Shown here in pieces: positions 2,767 to 49,056 of a stretch of 64,000 nt of DNA (position 1 is its first letter; every line of letters starts with the position of its first letter). Both the position numbers and the translations under genes were made by a program. The stretch spans positions 1 through 64,000 of the forward strand of contig NSKI01000008.1 of the NCBI GenBank assembly GCA_003586005.1, written 5' to 3'. The stretch comes from Haloplasmatales bacterium 4B (GTDB taxonomy: Bacteria > Bacillota_I > Bacilli_A > Haloplasmatales > Haloplasmataceae). The notes beneath the pieces were generated by a model. It had not been told where the DNA came from and did not search any database. It saw nothing but the letters and a program-made list of their open reading frames with translations.

Positions 2767-3774
2767 TTAATCAGTTGGATTAATTAAGTAGTTACCACGA
2801 TTTTTAAGTAAAACTTTAGTACCTTCAACTACAGCTGTTAATGGGCTATCAACCACTCTAACAGGTAGGTTAACCATTTCTTCAATGTATTCACATACAC
2901 CAGGAATGTTTGCTCCTCCACCATTAACAATTATTCCGTTTTCAACAATATCTGCAGATAATTCTGGTGGTGTAACTTCTAAAACAGAATAAACAACATT
3001 AATAATTTCATCAAAGATTGGTAAAATTATTTTGCGAACTTCTTTAGATGAAATCTTAGTCGCTGAAGGTAATCCAGAAACTAAGTCTCTACCTGATACC
3101 TTTACAAATTTCTCTTCTTCTTCATCTATTAATGTTGCAACTTCTATTTTTACTCTTTCAGCAGTTATTTGACCAATTACCAAGTTATGTGTTTTATGTA
3201 TATATTTAATAATTTCTTGGTCAATATAATTTCCTGCTACACGTATAGATTGAGATAATACTACATCACCTAGTGATAATACACCAACGTCAGTAGTTCC
3301 GCCACCAATATCAACAACCATTGTTGCGTTTGCTGAATAGATATCAACCCCAGAACCAATTGCTCCAGACTTAATTTCTTCTTCAATAAATACATCGTTA
3401 ATACCCATTTCAATCGCTAATTGGCGCATTGCCTCACGCTCGATTTGAGTTACTTCAGATGGACAACAAATCAAACATTTTGAGTTTTTAAAATCTCTCA
3501 TGTTTTGAACACGTTGGAAAACGTATTTTAATAATGCTTTAGCAGCGTCCATATCAGAAATTACACCTTCACGTAATGGACGGCTTACCTGAATTTTCTT
3601 GTGTGTTTTTCCAATCATAGAGAACGCGTCATTTCCACCGGCAATTACTTCACCAGTTTCAATATCAAAAGCTACAACTGAAGGTTCATTAAAAATGATT
3701 CCTTGTCCTTCATAGTATACTAATAAATTTGTCGTCCCTAAATCAATTCCTATGCCCAATTTCTTAATTGCCAT
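2767..3774 (-). CDS. mreB: MreB paralogue 1 (actin-like cytoskeletal ATPase)
   Basis: A 335-residue bacterial actin. It has the phosphate-1 loop (DLGTTN from Asp11), the catalytic-region Glu at 133 in an E-I-K-S-G-A-I-G context, phosphate-2 loop DIGGGTTD (155-162), and the C-terminal adenosine motif NGGGANIPG. MreB polymerises on the membrane with ATP; in walled cells it guides peptidoglycan synthesis. This copy is about 85% identical by eye to MreB4 (8078-9082) and much less so to the others, so the two are recent duplicates. It ends in GNYLINPTD, a tail shared in form by all five paralogues and unlike Bacillus MreB or Mbl. It follows mreB2 by 28 bp and should be cotranscribed with it. Confidence 0.96.
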   Translation of the reverse strand: MAIKKLGIGIDLGTTNLLVYYEGQGIIFNEPSVVAFDIETGEVIAGGNDAFSMIGKTHKKIQVSRPLREGVISDMDAAKALLKYVFQRVQNMRDFKNSKCLICCPSEVTQIEREAMRQLAIEMGINDVFIEEEIKSGAIGSGVDIYSANATMVVDIGGGTTDVGVLSLGDVVLSQSIRVAGNYIDQEIIKYIHKTHNLVIGQITAERVKIEVATLIDEEEEKFVKVSGRDLVSGLPSATKISSKEVRKIILPIFDEIINVVYSVLEVTPPELSADIVENGIIVNGGGANIPGVCEYIEEMVNLPVRVVDSPLTAVVEGTKVLLKNRGNYLINPTD

Positions 3775-3802: not shown

Positions 3803-4819
3803 CTAGTAATCATAAGGTTTAACTAAATAATTTCCTCTATTATTTAATAGTAATTTAGTACCTTCTACAATTGAAGTTAAAGGATTAACAGATATCTTAA
3901 CTTGTAATTGTAATTCTTCTTCTAAGAACTCTTTTATTCCATGAATTAAAGCTCCACCACCATTTATTACAATACCATTTTCAAAAATATCTGAAGATAA
4001 TTCTGGTGGAGTATTTTGAAGAACTTTTCTTATTGTATTAACAATTGATTCAAAAGCTCTAACGAAAATCTCCTTAACTTCTGATTGTTTCATTGTAACT
4101 TTGCATGGCAAACCATTACTTAGGTTTCTACCAGCAAAAGTATATTCCTTATCCTCACTTAATTCCTTACTTAATGTTCCTAATTGAATTTTAATTTGCT
4201 CAGAAGTATTATTCCCAATAATAATCCCATATTTGTATTTAACATATTTAGAAATTTCTTTATCTAAATAATTTCCAGCGATTTTGCTAGAATCAGAAAT
4301 AACAAGATCACCTAATGATAGAACTCCTATATCAGTTGTACCTCCACCTATATCAACTACCATTGACCCAGAAGCCTCAAAGATATCAATTCCAGCTCCA
4401 ATAGCACCAGCTTTTAACTCTTGTTCAACAAAAGCATCTCCGACACCTATCTTATTCGCTAATTCAAGTAAAGCTACTTTTTCAATATCTGATACTTCAG
4501 AAGGACAACATAATAATATTGTTGAGTTTTTTAAATCTACACTAATATTCTCTAATTTTTCAAATACATATTGAAGGTAAACTTTTGTAGCTTCTAAATC
4601 TGCTATTACTCCACCTTCCATTGGCTTTGCTAAACGTATATGTTTATGTTCTTTACCAAGCATTTCAGATGCTCTTTTACCAACGGCTATGCATTTATTA
4701 GTGCCTTTATCAAATGCAACTACTGATGGTTCATTATAAACTACACCACTACCGTTAATATAAACCAAGATATTAGCTGTACCTAAATCAACACCAATTT
4801 TATGACTTTTTTTTGCCAT
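3803..4819 (-). CDS. mreB: MreB paralogue 2
   Basis: A 338-residue MreB-family ATPase with DLGTAN, CCPSEVSD, E-L-K-A-G-A-I-G, DIGGGTTD and NGGGALIHG motifs all present. It groups by eye with MreB5 (shared KIGVDLGT, KNSTxLxCCPSEVS, MEGGVIAD/LEGGVIADL and xENGIxINGGGALI features). It is more diverged than the 1/4 pair and has an extra Tyr at the C terminus (KPYDY). It is the first gene of the mreB2-mreB1 pair, with its own promoter candidate about 60 bp upstream. The order (type 5/2, then type 4/1) is the same as in the mreB5-mreB4 pair, indicating duplication of a two-gene unit. Confidence 0.95.
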   Translation of the reverse strand: MAKKSHKIGVDLGTANILVYINGSGVVYNEPSVVAFDKGTNKCIAVGKRASEMLGKEHKHIRLAKPMEGGVIADLEATKVYLQYVFEKLENISVDLKNSTILLCCPSEVSDIEKVALLELANKIGVGDAFVEQELKAGAIGAGIDIFEASGSMVVDIGGGTTDIGVLSLGDLVISDSSKIAGNYLDKEISKYVKYKYGIIIGNNTSEQIKIQLGTLSKELSEDKEYTFAGRNLSNGLPCKVTMKQSEVKEIFVRAFESIVNTIRKVLQNTPPELSSDIFENGIVINGGGALIHGIKEFLEEELQLQVKISVNPLTSIVEGTKLLLNNRGNYLVKPYDY

Positions 4820-5007: not shown

Positions 5008-6873
5008 TTAATTAAATAATAATGAAACCTGTTTTATTTTAAACACATTTCTGTTCATAGAATTATTATATTTTTCATTTGAAACAATAATTGGCAGAAC
5101 TCCCTCACGGGTAATTTTATCAACCAAGCAATTAAATTCATTTGCTTTTTTTATGTTAATATTTTCTTTATCAGATAATTCAGGACCTTGTATATAGTCC
5201 AACTTCATTTTAGAATCGCCTTTGTACATTTTAATATTTCTAATAGCGCGCATAGCATTAAAATTAGATGATCTATTATTTTCCAATTCTTTTGTTATAA
5301 GAGAATGGATAACAATTTTTCTCTCTTCAAAATATTTGAATAAAATGTCAGGTTCTTCTAATAGTGCGCTTGTATCTAATATAAAACTTACTTCACGTTC
5401 ATTTTGCAAAATGATTCGCTTAACATTCATTAAATATAAACTTTTTTCAATGTAATCTTTATAATAATCAGTATTTAGATTATAACTTTCTATAAAGTTT
5501 TTGTATAAATTCTCATAATCGCTTAACATAAGTTCATTTTTACAACTTTTAATAAATACTTCTAATTCTTTTAACAATAACAAAATGTTCTCATCAGATA
5601 AACAAAGTTTTTTCCCTAATTTAACTCCTAGTTCGCTTAATTTAATCATTAATTTTAATGAATCAAAATTAAATACTGCTCTCCCAATTTGATTAAAATT
5701 ATGAGATGTAAATGAATTAGCTTTTAAAACACTAGATAAAAATTGATTCAATTGATTATTAAGCTCTTCAACCTTCATTGTATACATATATAAGAACAAA
5801 TTATCTAGAGTTGAAAAAGAATTACTACGATTAAAAAAAGTGTTTAATATTTGCTTTACATAATTTATATTACTGTTTTTGCCTTTAGCTAAGAATTTAA
5901 AATCTTCATAATCTGGTCCTAACTTGTTTAAAGACAGATTATACTTATCATTCATTAAAATAATATAATTATTCATTCCACATGATTCTCTAAATAAATT
6001 TTCACTTATATAAAGAATAATTATATTCCCTTGTTTTTCAATTCTATCATCACTATTGTTAAAATTACTAAAATATTGTTTATCACTATGTTGTAATAAA
6101 ATTAGGAATTTAGGTTCGCTTTGTTTCTCAGTTAAATCATCAATATCGATGTCTATCTTTTTTAAAAACATATCATTTATGAATAAACAATTGCTATTTT
6201 TATAATAATCAACTAAATACTCCATAATAATTGCTTTATCGACAGGATATACATTATCAATATAATCAATTGTTTTTGGAGTGATTAAATTAGCCTGAAA
6301 ATCAACTTCAGCATCAATACCTAAATTAGATAATATTTCTTTAAAAGAATATTGCTTTAAAAGAGCATTTGTATATAATTCATTTTCTGATTTAATAACT
6401 AGCTTAGAATTAATAAGATGCAATTCAAAATTTAAATTATAATACAATTTTTCAAGTTGATAATACCTCACATCAAATAAATATAAAGAATCTTTATATA
6501 AATCTGCGAAATAATTCATTATTTCTTCTTTTTTAAATTCTCTTTTTAATTGATTATCAATTTTTATCACAAACGGACATTCATAAGTGTTAAATAAATT
6601 CGAACTATCACTTATAAATTGATCCGTTATAACATTTATAATGTAATCAAATTTTTCTTCTTTCAACATATTAGGCATAAATATTTTTGAATATAAATTT
6701 ATATGCCTTTTAATTTCCACTTTTGTTACATCGCTTCTTTTAAATAAACTGTATAATTCATCACTCATTTGATCTATTAAATTGTTTCCGCTTTTATCAA
6801 AATATTTCACATAACAAACATTGTTGGCAACTTCTAGAGCAACTGTAAACTTTCTTAACAAAGTATTTTTCAC
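5008..6873 (-). CDS. Unknown 621-aa protein with C-terminal PIN-like domain, inside the mreB cluster
   Basis: A 621-residue soluble protein placed between mreB3 and mreB2. Residues 1-490 match no family I recognise; they are alpha-helical with several Asn/Lys/Asp-rich stretches and no signal peptide or membrane span. From residue 495 it resembles the PIN domain of PhoH-type proteins: FILDTSALLEEPD (acidic residue Asp500) and a VIHSLITKELE segment with the second acidic position. The later acidic positions look changed (LPIIVSNEKYN where TNDxxL is usual), so nuclease activity is doubtful. The start is GTG with a strong AAAGGGGGG Shine-Dalgarno sequence. Location suggests a partner or regulator of the MreB filaments, or an RNA-level control of their expression; both are inference. 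Confidence 0.8.
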   Translation of the reverse strand: MKNTLLRKFTVALEVANNVCYVKYFDKSGNNLIDQMSDELYSLFKRSDVTKVEIKRHINLYSKIFMPNMLKEEKFDYIINVITDQFISDSSNLFNTYECPFVIKIDNQLKREFKKEEIMNYFADLYKDSLYLFDVRYYQLEKLYYNLNFELHLINSKLVIKSENELYTNALLKQYSFKEILSNLGIDAEVDFQANLITPKTIDYIDNVYPVDKAIIMEYLVDYYKNSNCLFINDMFLKKIDIDIDDLTEKQSEPKFLILLQHSDKQYFSNFNNSDDRIEKQGNIIILYISENLFRESCGMNNYIILMNDKYNLSLNKLGPDYEDFKFLAKGKNSNINYVKQILNTFFNRSNSFSTLDNLFLYMYTMKVEELNNQLNQFLSSVLKANSFTSHNFNQIGRAVFNFDSLKLMIKLSELGVKLGKKLCLSDENILLLLKELEVFIKSCKNELMLSDYENLYKNFIESYNLNTDYYKDYIEKSLYLMNVKRIILQNEREVSFILDTSALLEEPDILFKYFEERKIVIHSLITKELENNRSSNFNAMRAIRNIKMYKGDSKMKLDYIQGPELSDKENINIKKANEFNCLVDKITREGVLPIIVSNEKYNNSMNRNVFKIKQVSLLFN

Positions 6874-7028: not shown

Positions 7029-8048
7029 TTAATCATTAGGAGCTACTAAGTAATCACCTTTATTTTTAAGAAGGTCCTTAGTTCCCTGAATTATTGAAGT
7101 AAGTGGGTCTGGTGATACTCGTATTTTAAGTTGAACCAAATCTTCTAAATATGCATCTAGCCCATCAATTAATGCGCCACCACCGTTAAGCACAACTCCG
7201 TTATCAATAATATCAGCAGCAATTTCAGGTGGTGTAACTTCTAAAACTTTTAAAATTACATTTGCAATAGTCTTAAATGAGTTTTTTAATACATCACGAA
7301 TTTCAGTTTGTCTGATTGTAATTTTTGATGGAAGACCACTCTTTAAATCTCTACCAGCAATAGTAATTTCTTTTTCGTTAGGTAAGTCATCACGTAATGT
7401 TGCTAAACTAATTTTTACTTTTTCTGCAGAAAGTGCTCCAATTTCAAAATTATATTTTTTCTTAATGAATTTTCTTATTTCTTCATCGAAAGCATTTCCA
7501 GCAGTTTTTATTGATTTAGAAACGACAATATCACCTAAAGCTAATACCCCAACATCAGTAGAACCTCCACCAATATCAATTACCATAGAACCAGATGGAT
7601 TGTAAATATCGATTCCAGCTCCAATCGCACCAGCTTTAACTTCTTCTTGTACAATAACATTTTGAATTCCAAAATTTAGCATAATATCTTTTAATGCTTG
7701 TCTCTCAATACCTGATAAATCTGAGTGACAACAAATCAATACTAAAGCATTTTTTAATTTTACATTTTCAAAATTAATTAAATGATTATTTAAAATATAT
7801 TCAAGCATTTTAATTGTTGCATCTTTATCAGCAACAACGCCCTGTTCTATTGGCCTAACAACTCTTATTTTATCATGTTGTTTTCCTAACATGCTTTTAG
7901 CGTTACTTCCAATAGCGATAATTTGGTCAGTGTCTTTATCAAATGCTACTACACTAGGTTCATTAAAAATGACACCTCTTCCACTAGAATATACTAGTGT
8001 GTTTGCAGTACCCAAATCTATCCCAATTTTTGTCTCATTTTTAGTCAT
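7029..8048 (-). CDS. mreB: MreB paralogue 3 (singleton type)
   Basis: A 339-residue MreB-family protein, the most isolated of the five. Motifs: DLGTAN, E-V-K-A-G-A-I-G, DIGGGSTDVGVLA (Ser in place of the first Thr of the phosphate-2 TT pair) and NGGGALIDG. Where the other four have CCPSE, this one has CCHSDLSGIE, losing the Pro of the conserved loop. The insertion before the loop (NNHLINFENVKLKNALVL) is longer and more hydrophobic than in MreB1/4, at the place where Gram-positive MreBs carry a membrane-insertion loop. It ends KNKGDYLVAPND. It is third in the mreB5-4-3 string, 29 bp after mreB4. Confidence 0.95.
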   Translation of the reverse strand: MTKNETKIGIDLGTANTLVYSSGRGVIFNEPSVVAFDKDTDQIIAIGSNAKSMLGKQHDKIRVVRPIEQGVVADKDATIKMLEYILNNHLINFENVKLKNALVLICCHSDLSGIERQALKDIMLNFGIQNVIVQEEVKAGAIGAGIDIYNPSGSMVIDIGGGSTDVGVLALGDIVVSKSIKTAGNAFDEEIRKFIKKKYNFEIGALSAEKVKISLATLRDDLPNEKEITIAGRDLKSGLPSKITIRQTEIRDVLKNSFKTIANVILKVLEVTPPEIAADIIDNGVVLNGGGALIDGLDAYLEDLVQLKIRVSPDPLTSIIQGTKDLLKNKGDYLVAPND

Positions 8049-8077: not shown

Positions 8078-9082
8078 CTAATCAGTAGGATTAATTAAAT
8101 AATTACCGCGATTTTTAAGCAGAACTTTAGTTCCTTCAACGACGTCTGTTAGTGGAGATTCAGAGATTTTAACAGGTAAATGTACCATATCTTCAATATA
8201 ATCTTTAATTCCAGGAATTAAAGCCCCACCACCGTTAACAATTATTCCATTATCAACGATATCTGCCGATAGTTCTGGTGGTGTAATTTCTAAAACAGAA
8301 TAAACTACATTTACGATCTCATCAAAAACTGGTAATAAAATTTTACGCACTTCTTTAGATGATATTTTTGTTGCTGAAGGTAGACCAGAAACTAAATCTC
8401 TACCAGATACTCTTATGAATTTTTCTTCTTCTTCATCTAGCAAAGTAGAAATTTCCATTTTTACTCTTTCAGCAGTTCTTTGACCGATAACTAAGTTATG
8501 TGTTTTGTGAACATACTTAACAATTTCTTGATCAATGTAGTTACCTGCAACACGAATTGATTGAGATAACACAACATCTCCTAGTGATAATACACCAACA
8601 TCAGTAGTTCCTCCACCAATATCAATTACCATTGTTGCATTAGCGGTATAAATATCTACACCTGATCCGATAGCACCAGCTTTAATTTCTTCTTCGATAA
8701 ATACATCGTTAATACCCATTTCAATTGCTAATTGTTTCATAGCTTCACGCTCAATTTGTGTGATTTCAGATGGACAACAAATTAAACATTTAGAGTTTTT
8801 AAAATCTCTCATGTTTTGAACACGTTCGAAAACATGTCTTAATAATGCTTTTGCAGCATCCATGTCAGATATTACTCCTTCACGCAATGGACGGCTTACT
8901 CTAATTTTTTTATGAGTTTTCCCAATCATAGAAAACGCATCTTCTCCAGCAGCAATCACCTCTCCAGTTTCGATATCAAATGCAACTACTGAAGGTTCAT
9001 TAAAGATAATCCCATTACCTTGCACGTAAACAAGTAAATTAGTTGTTCCTAGGTCTATACCTATACCTAGTTTCTTTTCCAT
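8078..9082 (-). CDS. mreB: MreB paralogue 4
   Basis: A 334-residue MreB nearly identical to MreB1 along its whole length (both contain GVISDMDAAKALL, KNSKCLICCPSE, DIGGGTTDVGVLSLGDVVLS and ELSADIV). ATP-site motifs are intact: DLGTTN, E-I-K-A-G-A-I-G, NGGGALIPG. Differences from MreB1 cluster near the C terminus (IEDMVHLPVKISESP against IEEMVNLPVRVVDSP), a region near the polymer interface. It lies 36 bp after mreB5 and 29 bp before mreB3, in one transcription unit. Confidence 0.96.
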   Translation of the reverse strand: MEKKLGIGIDLGTTNLLVYVQGNGIIFNEPSVVAFDIETGEVIAAGEDAFSMIGKTHKKIRVSRPLREGVISDMDAAKALLRHVFERVQNMRDFKNSKCLICCPSEITQIEREAMKQLAIEMGINDVFIEEEIKAGAIGSGVDIYTANATMVIDIGGGTTDVGVLSLGDVVLSQSIRVAGNYIDQEIVKYVHKTHNLVIGQRTAERVKMEISTLLDEEEEKFIRVSGRDLVSGLPSATKISSKEVRKILLPVFDEIVNVVYSVLEITPPELSADIVDNGIIVNGGGALIPGIKDYIEDMVHLPVKISESPLTDVVEGTKVLLKNRGNYLINPTD

Positions 9083-9118: not shown

Positions 9119-10132
9119 TTAATCTAATGGTTTTATTAAATAATTCCCTCTATTTTTCAATAAATATTTTGTCCCATCAACTATCGCAGTTAAGGGGTTT
9201 AAAGAAATTTTCATTTTTAATCCGATTGCTTCTTCAAAGTATTCTTTAATTCCATCAATTAATGCACCACCACCATTAATCATGATACCATTTTCAAAGA
9301 TATCAGCTGCTAATTCTGGAGGTGTCTGTTGTAACACCTTAAATGTAGTAATCGTTATTCCTTCAAAAGCTTTTACAAAAATGTCTCTAATTTCTGATTG
9401 TTTTAGAACAAGTCGACCAGGCAATCCTGTTTTAATATTTCTTCCTGAAACAGTATATTCTTTTTCATTGGGAAGGTCTCTTCTTAAAGTCCCTATTTCT
9501 AATTTAACTTTTTCAGCTGATCTGCTTCCTATTGCCATACCATGTCTCATTTTACAATATTTAATAATTTGATTATCTAAATATCTACCTGCTACTCTAA
9601 TTGACTCTGAAACTACTAAATCTCCTAATGCTAATACACCAATATCGGTAGATCCTCCACCAATATCTATTATCATTGAACCAATAGGAGCAAAAATATC
9701 TAGACCCGCACCAATAGCACCTGCTTTTACTTCTTCTTCAACAAATACATCTTTGATTCCTAGGTTATTAGATAAATCTCTTATTGCAGCACGCTCGATA
9801 CTAGAGACCTCAGAAGGACAACAAATTAGTAATGTAGAATTCTTAAAATCAACATTTATATCGACTAATTTAGTAAACACATGTTTCATTAATTCCTTGG
9901 CTCCATCTAAATCAGCGATTACTCCACCTTCAAGCGGCTTTGATATTTTAACCAAATGATGTTCTTTTCCCATCATTGCATAAGCGTTATGGCCTATAGC
10001 AATACAATTATTAGTTCTTCTATCAAAAGCAACACAAGACGGTTCATTGAAAATAAGACCGTGTCCATTAATATAAACTAAAGTGTTAACAGTGCCTAAA
10101 TCGACCCCTATTTTATATCCTTTTTTAACCAT
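9119..10132 (-). CDS. mreB: MreB paralogue 5, first gene of the mreB5-4-3 operon
   Basis: A 337-residue MreB with DLGTVN, CCPSEVSSIE, E-V-K-A-G-A-I-G, DIGGGSTDIGVLA and NGGGALIDG. Like MreB3 it has Ser at the first position of the phosphate-2 TT pair; like MreB2 it carries the KNST..CCPSEVS block, so it pairs with MreB2. A longer in-frame start exists at 10165. The ATG at 10132 is preferred because GAGGTG lies 5 bases before it, the resulting N terminus (MVKKGYKIG) aligns with the other paralogues, and the promoter -10 box at 10166-10171 would leave the longer start almost at the transcript end. Confidence 0.93.
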   Translation of the reverse strand: MVKKGYKIGVDLGTVNTLVYINGHGLIFNEPSCVAFDRRTNNCIAIGHNAYAMMGKEHHLVKISKPLEGGVIADLDGAKELMKHVFTKLVDINVDFKNSTLLICCPSEVSSIERAAIRDLSNNLGIKDVFVEEEVKAGAIGAGLDIFAPIGSMIIDIGGGSTDIGVLALGDLVVSESIRVAGRYLDNQIIKYCKMRHGMAIGSRSAEKVKLEIGTLRRDLPNEKEYTVSGRNIKTGLPGRLVLKQSEIRDIFVKAFEGITITTFKVLQQTPPELAADIFENGIMINGGGALIDGIKEYFEEAIGLKMKISLNPLTAIVDGTKYLLKNRGNYLIKPLD

Positions 10133-10165
10133 CATCTCACCTCTAGATATGTATTTTATATCCAA

Positions 10166-15896: not shown

Positions 15897-18800
15897 TTAC
15901 AACTCCCTCCTACGATATTTAATTATTTTCATTGGGAGTATAAAAACACCTATTAGCAACAATACTGTATAAATAATATAATTATAATTACTGTCATCAA
16001 TATCTGCAGTAATTTCAAAATAGGTTATTTGTTCAACACCATTTTCAAAAACTTCACCGATACTTATATTATTGATTCCATCACTTAAGAGTAAGTTAAT
16101 TTGGCAAGAGGATGTAATTTCTACTAGCTTTCCATCAACATAGATTCGATAAGTGCTCACATCTGGGAATTTATCCCATTTTATTAATAAATTTGCAGAT
16201 TTGTATCTTTTGTCTTTTTCATAATTATTTAAAGTCATTAAGTGATCTAGCTCTAGAGTATTAGTTATAAAATTTGCTTCATTCTTCTTGTTAAAAAGCT
16301 CATAAAACAATTTATCATCATGTATTTCAAAACTATGAATTACTCCATTTATATTAATCACATTTTCCATATTAACAAAATTATTCATACGCATTATTTT
16401 AGTAGTAACAGTTCCATGATTTATTATCGTAAAAATCCCATACATATCTTCATCATGTTTAAAAGTATCAATATATCCTCCTGGTGAACCAATTTTACTA
16501 TTTTGCATATCATTTTTATTGATATAACTAATATTAAGGGGAACAACTTTCTTAACTGTAATGCTGTCATCTAAACTGTAAAATTGAAGGTACGTTTCTC
16601 CCCATCTATCAACTAAAACTAAAACATCTTTTTTCCCATCACCTGTGACATCATCAATAATTGTCAATGGTTTAAATTGCGAATTATAAGTTAGTTCATT
16701 ACCTTCATAAAACTTCTTAACAAAAAGAATGTCTGAACTATTAAAATCAACATAAGGATTAACAATTTCGCTTCTAGTATGCCATTCTCCAAACTCATCT
16801 TCACCACTAGTTGTCACAATTATTTCGTATTTACCATCATCGTTCAAATCTTCATAAATAGGATATAATGAAAAATCCCAATTAGCATCTATACTTCCAA
16901 CAACACTTTCACTTGAATAAAAAATTATGACCTTGTTTTTAGATTCAGAATCTAATCTTAAAACGGTGTCATTATACCCATCATTATCAAAATCATCATT
17001 TTTTGATATGTTTTGATTATTAAACCAAAAGCTAAAATTTCCTAATGAAATTTCATCGACAACTTCAACATTAAGAGTATCATCAAAGGAAACTACTGTG
17101 ATTATATTACTACTTAATATGTACATTTCTTTTTTATCTTCAACAAAAGCTGGAATAATAAAATTGTAATATTCATCATTATTTTCAACCAAATCATTTA
17201 AATTGGCATCAATTAAGACCTCATTTAGATTCGCTCCATTTAAAATTATAAAGTTAGCATCTTCAGAGTTGATTAGCACATCTAAAACACCATCATTATT
17301 AAAGTCTGGTGCTTTAGTAAATACATTAAATTTGCTAGTTTCTTCATATGGCAGTAAATATTGATTAACATCATTGCTATCATTAATATTAATTGTTATT
17401 AATTTGTTTTCATCATTAATAAAAGCAAACATGCCCTCAATTATTAAATATTTTGTAAAACTAGAATTACCTAATTCATAATTCCACAACAAATTATTAA
17501 TTTCATTGAAACATTCTATAGCATAATAAGTTTTAAGATCATCTCGACCTAGTTTATAAAACAATTTATAAAAATTGTTAGCTTCAATAATCGTGTCATA
17601 GCCATCAAAATAACCAATCGTATTTATAACACTTGGATTTAAGGGATCATCAATATTTAATTTATATATAGTATTATAATTAACTATTAAATTTCCCTTA
17701 TATAATATTGGATTTACTGAATAACTAGGAGTAGTTCCATCATTACCTATAGGATTGCTAAGCAGTATTTCACTCACACTTTCATTATCTTCTAGATTAA
17801 ATACAAATGCTTTAGTTCCATCAAAATAACTAATATCACCGCTTTCATTAACTGTTAAATCGATAATTTCTTTATTAATATCCATTTCCCAAATTACATT
17901 AAACGTCGAACTATTTATTAAATACATTTTAGGGGTCAAAGCAGTAAAATTAGCTAATCTATTCGATTCAAAAACTGTTACTAATATGTATTCTGAAACG
18001 ATACGTGTATTAATAATTTTATAAGTATTTACACCATCATTAGAAATCCCGCTAATTTCTTTTAATTTATTTCCTTCTAAATATGATTGATAAACCAATA
18101 AATTAGGGATTTCATCTAAAATTTTTCGTTCACTAATTTTCGACCCATCAGCTGGAGACAATTTGGTAATATAACCATCTTCACCAGTTGCGATTAAATT
18201 ATTGTTAAGGTAATGTAAATCCCAGATATTTGTTTTAATATCTCCAAGTACTTTATTATCAATTTTTACTTGATATGGTTTGGCTATTTGTTTTTCCCAA
18301 ATAACTTTACCATTTAATCCATCAAGTCCGATAACGTTTGTTGGCTGAACACTGATTGCGACATCATCTATTTGATCATTATTTGGATCTCCGATAAAGG
18401 TTGCCGCCCATATATTATCCTGATATTCATAATGCCAGTTTTCTAAACCTGATTTCAAATCTAAATTGTAAAGTAGATATCCCGATACTAGCAAAACACT
18501 AGATTGATTAATATCATAATCAAAAATAGGTGTCTTTTTTTCCATCTTTATACTTTGATCATTATAACCTGTTGTATAAGTAGTAAAAGTCCAGATTTTT
18601 CCCAAACTGTCAAGACTATAAACAACCACACTAGGCATATTTTCAGACTCTAAAAATAATATTAAATCCTTATTTGGGAGTTCATCAGATTCAATATTAT
18701 CAATAACGGCATAATCTAATATTTTTGCATTTAAATTAATTTGCTTCTCAATTTTAAATGACTCCGGGTCAATTAAGTTCATACCATTATCTGTAGGTAC

Positions 18801-18968
18801 AAAAAGAAATTGACTAGTATTATCAATGTATTCAAGTCTCATATTACTACTTAACTGCCCATTGATAAAATCACCACTTATTACAGCTTTAACATCAAAT
18901 TTCATAAATAATAAGTTAGGTAAAAGTGATGCAAATATTAATATAAGTAAATAAAACCGTTTCTTCAT
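15897..18968 (-). CDS. Large surface beta-propeller protein, membrane-anchored, in an ABC exporter operon
   Basis: A 1023-residue exported protein. It has an N-terminal signal peptide (MKKRFYLLILIFASLLPNLL), a C-terminal span (YIIYTVLLLIGVFILPMKII) with a basic cytoplasmic tail, and about 970 residues outside. The outside part has PQQ/WD-like blades (for example GLDGLNGKVIWEKQ) and at least five FG-GAP/EF-hand-like loops: DPNNDQIDD, DFNNDGVLD, DFDNDGYND, DLNDDGKYE and DVTGDGKKD. These normally bind calcium and cap blades of integrin-like propellers. Near residues 895-960 an FN3-like module (LLIKWDKFPDVSTYRIYVDG) precedes the span. It is the first gene of the operon with the ABC-2 transporter. 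Adhesion or binding of an exported partner is inferred. Confidence 0.88.
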   Translation of the reverse strand: MKKRFYLLILIFASLLPNLLFMKFDVKAVISGDFINGQLSSNMRLEYIDNTSQFLFVPTDNGMNLIDPESFKIEKQINLNAKILDYAVIDNIESDELPNKDLILFLESENMPSVVVYSLDSLGKIWTFTTYTTGYNDQSIKMEKKTPIFDYDINQSSVLLVSGYLLYNLDLKSGLENWHYEYQDNIWAATFIGDPNNDQIDDVAISVQPTNVIGLDGLNGKVIWEKQIAKPYQVKIDNKVLGDIKTNIWDLHYLNNNLIATGEDGYITKLSPADGSKISERKILDEIPNLLVYQSYLEGNKLKEISGISNDGVNTYKIINTRIVSEYILVTVFESNRLANFTALTPKMYLINSSTFNVIWEMDINKEIIDLTVNESGDISYFDGTKAFVFNLEDNESVSEILLSNPIGNDGTTPSYSVNPILYKGNLIVNYNTIYKLNIDDPLNPSVINTIGYFDGYDTIIEANNFYKLFYKLGRDDLKTYYAIECFNEINNLLWNYELGNSSFTKYLIIEGMFAFINDENKLITININDSNDVNQYLLPYEETSKFNVFTKAPDFNNDGVLDVLINSEDANFIILNGANLNEVLIDANLNDLVENNDEYYNFIIPAFVEDKKEMYILSSNIITVVSFDDTLNVEVVDEISLGNFSFWFNNQNISKNDDFDNDGYNDTVLRLDSESKNKVIIFYSSESVVGSIDANWDFSLYPIYEDLNDDGKYEIIVTTSGEDEFGEWHTRSEIVNPYVDFNSSDILFVKKFYEGNELTYNSQFKPLTIIDDVTGDGKKDVLVLVDRWGETYLQFYSLDDSITVKKVVPLNISYINKNDMQNSKIGSPGGYIDTFKHDEDMYGIFTIINHGTVTTKIMRMNNFVNMENVININGVIHSFEIHDDKLFYELFNKKNEANFITNTLELDHLMTLNNYEKDKRYKSANLLIKWDKFPDVSTYRIYVDGKLVEITSSCQINLLLSDGINNISIGEVFENGVEQITYFEITADIDDSNYNYIIYTVLLLIGVFILPMKIIKYRRREL

Positions 18969-46374: not shown

Positions 46375-49056
46375 ATGTCTAAAAAAACAATTTTTGAAGT
46401 TTTAAAAACTTTTGCGGTATTTGTAGTATTGATCCTTAGTTTTATATTTGGTTATACATACTATAAAGTTAGCGGTATTATAAATGAACTCCCCTATTTA
46501 GATATAAATAAAATACATGTTAATGAGTCAACTAAGGTTTTTGATAAAAACCAGGTTTTGATGGTAGAATTAGGAGTTGAAAAACGCGATATTGTTAAAT
46601 ATGAAAACATATCTCATGAAATGGTCAATGCTTTAATTTCAATTGAAGACATGCGTTTTTATGACCATGATGGGATTGATTACAAACGAATATTTGGCGC
46701 AATCGTTGAAAATATTAAATCTATTAGTTACAGTGAAGGTGCCAGTACTTTAACACAACAACTTGTAAAATTATCATATTTGACTAACGATAAAACATTA
46801 GAGCGAAAAATAAAAGAAATGTTTATTAGCCTCGAGTTAGAAAAACAAATTTCTAAAGAGATAATTATTGAAGCATATTTAAACAGAGTTCTTTTTGGCG
46901 GAAGAATATATGGAATTGAAAAAGCTAGTAAATATTACTTTAATAAATCAGCAAAAGCATTGAATTATGAAGAATCAGCGCTTCTAGCAGGAATTATTCA
47001 AAGCCCTAATAGATACAATCCTTATGTTAATCCTGAAGAAACTAAATCAAGACAAATTTTAGTCTTGAAGGCTTTATATAATCAACAATTTATTTCTAAA
47101 ATTGATTTAGATAACGCCATAAATAAGCCAATTGAAGAGTTAATAGTCGAACAATTGGAAAGTAATGAACATGAAAAATATTATGAATACATTGACCTAG
47201 TAATATATGAGATTCAAAATAAGTATAATTTAAATCCTTTTAACGAAAGTTTGCGAATTTACACTCATTTAGACACTAGCATTCAAGACTATATATACGA
47301 AATCGAAAATGATGATAATCTTCATCCAAATGATAGAACCCAAACTGGTATTGTTGTTTTAGAAACAAAAACGGGCATAATTAGAGGAATCGGTGGTGGT
47401 AGAGGACACGAAGGTTCTATGTCCTTTAATTTCGCTACAGACGCCAAAAGACAACCTGGGTCAACAATTAAACCAATCCTTGATTATGGTCCTGCAATCG
47501 AATATTTAAAATACTCACCCGCCCAACCTTTTTTAGATGAAGAAATTTATTTTAATACATATGGTAGCCGTTTTGTTCCAATTGAAAATTATGACAATAA
47601 ATATAAAGGCTATTTAACAATGCGGGATGCGATTATTGATTCAAGAAATGTAACTGCAGTTAAAGCTTTCAGAGAAGTTGGTGCGGAAAGAGCATATCAA
47701 TTTGCTAACCGTTTAGGAATTAAAACTGATGAACGTATAACTGAAGCCCATGCAATTGGTGGTTATCAATATGGTTTTACTGTTATGCAAATGGCAGCTG
47801 CTTATGCACCATTTGGTAATGGTGGCTATTATCATGAGCCAACTACAATTGATTTTATTCAAAAAAATGGTGAAAAGTTAAAAGTGGAACCAATTACAAG
47901 GCAAGCTATGCGAAAAGATACCGCATATTTAATGACAGACATATTACGGGATAATATGGTTTCAGGAACAGCTATACGAGCAAATGTATCTGATCTCATT
48001 ATAGCCGGAAAAACAGGTCAAACAAATTATAATGAATTCACTAGAAAGAAATTTGGTTTTCCAAGTAATAGTGTAAGAGATTCTTGGTTTATTGGTTACA
48101 CAACTAAATACACAACAGCTGCTTGGTTAGGATATGACAAAATTGAAGAAGACGCTTATTTAACTCCAGCTGAAGCCAAAAAATCTTTAGAAATTTTCAA
48201 AAAGACAATGGACATAATTCACAAGGATAGGTTTTCTAGTAAACCCTTTACTAGACCAGACAATATAATTGAAGTAGAAGTAGAAACTAATTCTACACCA
48301 CTAAACCTACCAAATGAATATACACCTGATATGTATCGAAAAAAAGATTTATTTATTAAAGGAACTGAGCCATCTTCCGTTTCAAGTCGTTTTAATCCTC
48401 TAAAAATGCCCAGAAATTTTGTTGTTTACTATGATGGTATTAATGAAAACATAGTTTTTAAATGGGATAAATATAATAACGATTATTCTTTAGCTGACTT
48501 TGAAATTATGGAAAGAGTGCATAAAATAAGTAATTATTATGATTATTATAAAAATAAAACGCAAAAAGAGTATTATCAATCTAGTGTCTTTAATCCATCC
48601 TATTTAAATGAACAAAGAGTGAAAGCCACTAATTACAACTACTGTAAATCAAGTAGTAAAAAAGCTAATTTATGTCCTATTACAAAGATTCAATCTTTAA
48701 ATCTTCATTTATCTTTACTCGAAGGGCTTAAAAATTATGAAATTAGTATCTTATTAAATGGGAAAGACATTAATATTTTAAATAATGGAGAAATTAGTGA
48801 ATTAAGGGGTTATTCTACTTGGAATGGTTACCGAAATGGCATATATAGTAATTTAGGAGCAATTGAATACCGAATAGTTGGTACAAAAGGAACAGAACAT
48901 ACCACATTATATGTAGGTCCATATCAAGAAGAAGTTAAAGTTTATTCTCAAATAGATGATTACATAGAATATGATTCGTTTTCAATTTCAGCTGATTATT
49001 CTAAGTATCGCAATAGATTAAAAAGTGATAGTAATATTAGTTTAAATCCATTTTAA
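46375..49056 (+). CDS. ponA: Class A penicillin-binding protein (PBP1A-type)
   Basis: An 893-residue bifunctional peptidoglycan synthase. One N-terminal span (residues 10-30); a GT51 glycosyltransferase domain with EDMRFYDHDGID (Glu91) and EGASTLTQQLVK; a transpeptidase domain with SxxK at 363-366 (GSTIKPI), SRN (DSRNVTAVKA) and KTGQT; then a C-terminal tail of about 230 residues with Tyr-rich segments of no named fold. There is no separate ribosome site, so translation is likely coupled to recU. It shows that this lineage can build peptidoglycan, unlike the wall-less Mollicutes. Confidence 0.96.
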   Translation: MSKKTIFEVLKTFAVFVVLILSFIFGYTYYKVSGIINELPYLDINKIHVNESTKVFDKNQVLMVELGVEKRDIVKYENISHEMVNALISIEDMRFYDHDGIDYKRIFGAIVENIKSISYSEGASTLTQQLVKLSYLTNDKTLERKIKEMFISLELEKQISKEIIIEAYLNRVLFGGRIYGIEKASKYYFNKSAKALNYEESALLAGIIQSPNRYNPYVNPEETKSRQILVLKALYNQQFISKIDLDNAINKPIEELIVEQLESNEHEKYYEYIDLVIYEIQNKYNLNPFNESLRIYTHLDTSIQDYIYEIENDDNLHPNDRTQTGIVVLETKTGIIRGIGGGRGHEGSMSFNFATDAKRQPGSTIKPILDYGPAIEYLKYSPAQPFLDEEIYFNTYGSRFVPIENYDNKYKGYLTMRDAIIDSRNVTAVKAFREVGAERAYQFANRLGIKTDERITEAHAIGGYQYGFTVMQMAAAYAPFGNGGYYHEPTTIDFIQKNGEKLKVEPITRQAMRKDTAYLMTDILRDNMVSGTAIRANVSDLIIAGKTGQTNYNEFTRKKFGFPSNSVRDSWFIGYTTKYTTAAWLGYDKIEEDAYLTPAEAKKSLEIFKKTMDIIHKDRFSSKPFTRPDNIIEVEVETNSTPLNLPNEYTPDMYRKKDLFIKGTEPSSVSSRFNPLKMPRNFVVYYDGINENIVFKWDKYNNDYSLADFEIMERVHKISNYYDYYKNKTQKEYYQSSVFNPSYLNEQRVKATNYNYCKSSSKKANLCPITKIQSLNLHLSLLEGLKNYEISILLNGKDINILNNGEISELRGYSTWNGYRNGIYSNLGAIEYRIVGTKGTEHTTLYVGPYQEEVKVYSQIDDYIEYDSFSISADYSKYRNRLKSDSNISLNPF

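Follow-up and report, generated by a model that had tools for sequence, protein, structure and literature searches.

In mreBCD operons, the genes adjoining mreB encode partner proteins of MreB, with MreC, MreD, and RodZ as partners. The gene described here, X, resembles theirs in its position beside mreB, but its product has no sequence relation to them and MreC was undetected in the genomes concerned. In Spiroplasma, the reconstituted swimming set consists of five MreBs, fibril, and one unannotated gene, and certain MreB pairs are sufficient for helicity and swimming (PMC9710875). Haloplasma contractile carries seven MreBs and no fibril, and its cells switch between a straight and a contracted shape (PMC8432965).

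We analyzed 64,000 nucleotides of Haloplasmatales bacterium 4B DNA (assembly GCA_003586005.1, contig NSKI01000008.1, positions 1 to 64,000; hereafter the window), which hold a gene cluster that, like the Spiroplasma set, has five MreBs and two other, lineage-specific proteins, X and Y. The Spiroplasma set is spread over four loci (PMC9710875), whereas the Haloplasmataceae genes form one cluster. Moreover, fibril is nucleosidase-derived, whereas no nucleosidase domain was seen in X: residues 1–490 gave no MTA/SAH nucleosidase match in Pfam, NCBIfam, or PDB, and the fold comparison, made with a poor model, was weak.

The mreB cluster and its two orphan genes

The cluster runs along the minus strand from mreB-A (9119–10165, which probably starts within the listed ORF) and mreB-B (8078–9082) to mreB-C (7029–8048), X (5008–6873), mreB-D (3803–4819), mreB-E (2767–3774), and Y (1260–2657). 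X is bordered directly upstream by mreB-C and directly downstream by mreB-D. The initial annotation had described two strings of mreB genes around X; the flanking mreBs are there, but they belong to one five-mreB cluster interrupted by X. These five are all the full MreBs of the window genome. In the MreB tree, the mreB-C copies, present in every genome with X, form a clade of their own (100/100), while mreB-E shares a clade with mreB-B. Members of the mreB-C clade (window 7029–8048 and orthologues) have an insertion of two to three residues near residue 88, and CCHSDLS where other MreBs have CCPSEVS/T; judged from sequence, these features could possibly form a paralogue-specific contact site.

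X encodes 621 amino acids from a GTG start codon preceded by a strong ribosome-binding site (AAAGGGGGGAATTAAGTG). Homologues in three other genomes (37–54% identity) are full-length with intact frames, so X is not a chance ORF, and the protein first proposed from the reading frame alone is the product of a real gene. X has diverged further than the neighboring MreBs (73–89% identity), and its G+C content is 0.23 against 0.30–0.34 for the mreBs, with GC3 inside the range of neighboring genes. The intergenic gaps around X (64–227 nt) are mostly wider than those between mreBs (26–68 nt), implying that X may have its own promoter. A promoter scan scored no better than shuffled sequences.

The second orphan, Y (465 aa), has an acidic linker and a C-terminal hydrophobic (membrane) helix, and was found only in Haloplasmataceae. 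It travels with mreBs in five genomes, namely the four X carriers and G004, which is without X, and is the last gene of the cluster in each. Three genomes have a Y paralogue close to the cluster, the window genome has one on a separate contig (G000:C47), and distant Y relatives persist in the mreB-less G002 and G007. Common ancestry of X and Y was considered and rejected, as comparison found no relation between them. Further along the window, a 1023-aa ORF (15897–18968) adjoining ABC transporter genes encodes a probable secreted or membrane protein.

A degenerate PIN domain behind an N-terminal region of no known family

The C-terminal part of X (residues about 495–620; window 5014–5391, minus strand) has the PIN alpha/beta fold, as the initial annotation had proposed, with Pfam, structure prediction, and PDB matches in agreement and no other fold indicated. 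Pfam PIN_4 matched X above its gathering score (residues 497–543, E 9.5e-5) and all four homologues (best E 2e-7). The AlphaFold model shows a PIN fold at mostly pLDDT 80–90 over residues 495–620, and the Foldseek matches in PDB at probability 1.00 were PIN domains, the best credible ones being Nmd4, SMG6, SMG5, and other PINs. A viral fold library likewise returned credible matches to PIN/PhoH only.

In sequence, the PIN domain of X is nearest to the PIN half of PhoH2, a PIN-PhoH RNA helicase (NF053827). When the PIN domains of the four X proteins were compared as a profile with seven from PhoH2 proteins, the latter taken from plasmid and phage records, the match had 96.6% probability and E 4.7e-10 (a single comparison). 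The NCBIfam PhoH2 model itself matched X weakly, over model positions 3–57 of 427 (the PIN part) and far below cut-off, and tblastn with the PIN region from a relative brought up PhoH proteins at non-significant E-values. The two proteins are alike in the first PIN half, with DT(S/N) and E(L/I)(E/D) motifs followed by an NA-R helix. However, the PIN domain is C-terminal in X and N-terminal in PhoH2, no PhoH ATPase/helicase match was found in X, and the third acidic motif of PhoH2 (ND-N/D-x-I) is lost.

The initial reading that the first acidic motifs are kept and later ones altered is borne out by the four X proteins. All of them share FILDTS (D500) and ELE (E529). Where PhoH2 has its third acidic residue (ND-N-x-I), the profile alignment puts I, P, or L in all four, and at the fourth position the SND of three relatives is SNE in the window protein. 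The acidic active site is thus incomplete, with the first and second residues kept, the third lost, and the fourth D or E. In SMG6, which has four acidic residues (D1251, E1282, D1353, and D1392), the D1353A mutant is catalytically inactive (PMC12923823). Given this precedent and the lost third residue, X probably has little or no nuclease activity, as far as sequence can tell. X shares a PIN fold and an incomplete acidic site with SMG5 and other inactive PINs (fold match; PMC12923823). However, SMG5 is eukaryotic with different partner domains, and any action of X on RNA is hypothetical. Inactive PINs can nevertheless assist cleavage, the active site of SMG6 being completed by SMG5 (PMC12923823). 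The conservation of D500 and E529 suggests that the active-site pocket of X keeps some use, which counts against the domain being a binding module only. By PIN_4 search, X was the only such protein in the X-carrying genome, and the four family genomes that lack X had none.

Residues 1–490 have no match in Pfam, NCBIfam, or PHROGs (all four homologues) or, by sequence, in PDB, the PIN part alone being matched; the first description of some 490 residues outside known families stands. Residues 1–400 are conserved among homologues (e.g., CYVKY, D-RYY--EK-YY, and E-LFRE), and residues 403–490 are predicted with good confidence to form a helical bundle running into the PIN domain. A fold search with residues 1–494 alone returned nothing at E < 0.05 from a poor model (mean pLDDT 59). 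With only three usable sequences, modeling of the N-terminal part was poor, and we therefore do not claim a new fold. A candidate internal repeat (about residues 116–150 versus 212–245) was set aside as too weak. X thus has a known kind of domain (PIN) in an unfamiliar setting, with an N-terminal part outside known families.

Distribution of X and history of the cluster

We sampled eight Haloplasmataceae genomes (G000–G007, draft assemblies, G000 being the window genome), of which four, belonging to three genera, carry X (G000, G001, G003, and G006). Outside the family, X was found in none of 60 relatives, 395 genomes of the class, and 392 of the phylum (overlapping samples), nor in phages, plasmids, or viral contigs, so that X is, as suggested at the outset, lineage-specific among the genomes sampled. 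When genome contigs were searched with the X alignment, two of the homologues proved to come from named records, one a MAG of Haloplasma contractile and the other from an uncultured Haloplasmataceae MAG, whereas a single-sequence query gave nothing. Our literature search covered open-access papers, and an earlier account of the X gene is possible in the subscription literature, for example on the H. contractile genome.

The gene order A-B-C-X-D-E-Y, on one strand and with X between mreB-C and mreB-D, is the same in all four X genomes, and X is fixed beside mreB in each. The expectation that X homologues always go with multi-mreB clusters held in one direction: X always has mreB neighbors and was not found widely without them, but G004 and G005 have several mreBs and no X. 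In G004 (85% complete) the order is A-B-D-E-Y, with C and X missing. The mreBs of G005 are A, B, C, and an E/B-type copy, and X, a D-type neighbor, and Y are absent. Directly downstream of its mreB-C, in place of X, G005 has a gene of about 174–178 aa (L042 7218–7754) with no Pfam match and no relation to X. Neither a cluster MreB nor X was found in G002 and G007.

In the IleS tree, G005 branches first and G004 next, and G002 and G007 fall among the X carriers, in a group of six genomes (94/96). Since G002 and G007 are nested among X carriers and have neither cluster nor X, their state reads as joint loss. The simplest history is that X was gained after the G004 split and lost with the mreB cluster in G002 and G007, a history drawn from draft assemblies and a single gene tree, in which the crown is unresolved and one row is a fragment. 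X probably originated when a PhoH2-type PIN was joined to about 490 further residues within a pre-existing mreB cluster, after the G004 split.

A search for MreC gave nothing above cut-off in any of the eight family genomes but detected it in eight of 14 control genomes. Six of the MreC-negative Haloplasmataceae genomes have several MreBs, which probably function apart from the classical wall-building complex, given that MreC was undetected in all eight. Together with the literature on H. contractile, the lack of detectable MreC suggests, by analogy, that these MreBs form a cytoskeleton that generates shape and movement, as they do in Spiroplasma. The window also holds an 893-aa ORF (46375–49056) resembling a class A penicillin-binding protein, which would be odd if the lineage is wall-less like H. 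contractile.

Candidate role in the multi-MreB cytoskeleton

X has a fixed place in the cluster, occurs in this family alone, and is missing from genomes that lack the cluster, and is therefore best read as a cytoskeleton accessory. On the basis of synteny and co-occurrence, we give a probability of about one half to X being a family-specific component or partner of the Haloplasmataceae multi-MreB cytoskeleton, its PIN domain exapted as a binding module. The earlier proposal of a partner of the MreBs thus survives as a candidate from genomic context, through fixed synteny in four of four carriers and joint absence from the two mreB-less relatives. In this proposal, the PIN domain, having lost one metal-binding residue, would most likely not cut RNA and would serve as a binding fold. 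X would bind one or more MreB paralogues, with its neighbors MreB-C or MreB-D as first candidates given the genomic association, and may control the assembly, bundling, or placement of MreBs. Y would be a membrane-anchored member of the same kit, and X may act in cell shape or contraction. Several observations count against a partner role. All four X sequences come from one family, X diverges much faster than the adjoining MreBs, and both G004 and G005 hold many MreBs without X, G005 even with MreB-C.

The other function proposed at the outset, regulation at the RNA level, would have the PIN domain bind or cut mRNA, perhaps mreB transcripts, and so set the ratio of MreB paralogues. Homology to PhoH2, structural matches to RNases and to PINs of RNA decay (such as SMG6 and Nmd4), two invariant acidic residues, a nearly invariant SN-D/E motif, and the ability of inactive PINs to join in cleavage, as SMG5 does in completing the SMG6 site (PMC12923823), keep this idea in play. 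It loses weight because all four proteins lack the third acidic residue; moreover, a search of these genomes with PIN_4 found no second protein for a composite site, and the larger N-terminal part has no recognized RNA-binding domain. We consider such regulation unlikely. A nuclease whose site tolerates the lost residue, with a housekeeping role apart from MreB and a merely historical position in the cluster, would account for the unchanging D500 and E529, an acidic fourth residue (D or E), and the lack of any other PIN_4 protein in these genomes. Yet X is missing from half of the family, including both relatives without the mreB cluster, and occurs at no other locus, and we regard an active housekeeping enzyme as quite improbable.

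Fast divergence, low G+C (0.23, below 0.30–0.34 for the mreBs), and the lack of homologues outside the family could also mark X as a fast-evolving orphan or formerly mobile gene that inserted into the cluster and has been kept as a passenger. However, it is intact, full-length, and in the identical position in three genera, is unmatched in phages, plasmids, and viral contigs, and has a GC3 within its neighbors' range, making a passenger gene very improbable.

Beyond the partner role, a more ambitious proposal can be put forward only tentatively, and we would sooner doubt than expect it: five or more MreBs, X, and Y would make up a contraction machine, with X, built from a dead nuclease domain and a new N-terminal region, as the functional counterpart of Spiroplasma fibril, either forming filaments or binding MreB.

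In published descriptions, H. contractile has seven MreBs but neither a cell wall nor fibril. The seven-gene cluster of five MreBs and two family-only proteins, X and Y, supplies the first non-MreB candidates for contraction, and the Spiroplasma precedent, a gene set expressed in JCVI-syn3B, offers an assay format. The H. contractile MAG carries the X cluster. As a constant member of the five-mreB cluster, X is a good candidate for a missing part of the shape and motion machinery; if this is true, a nuclease fold would have been recruited to the cytoskeleton.
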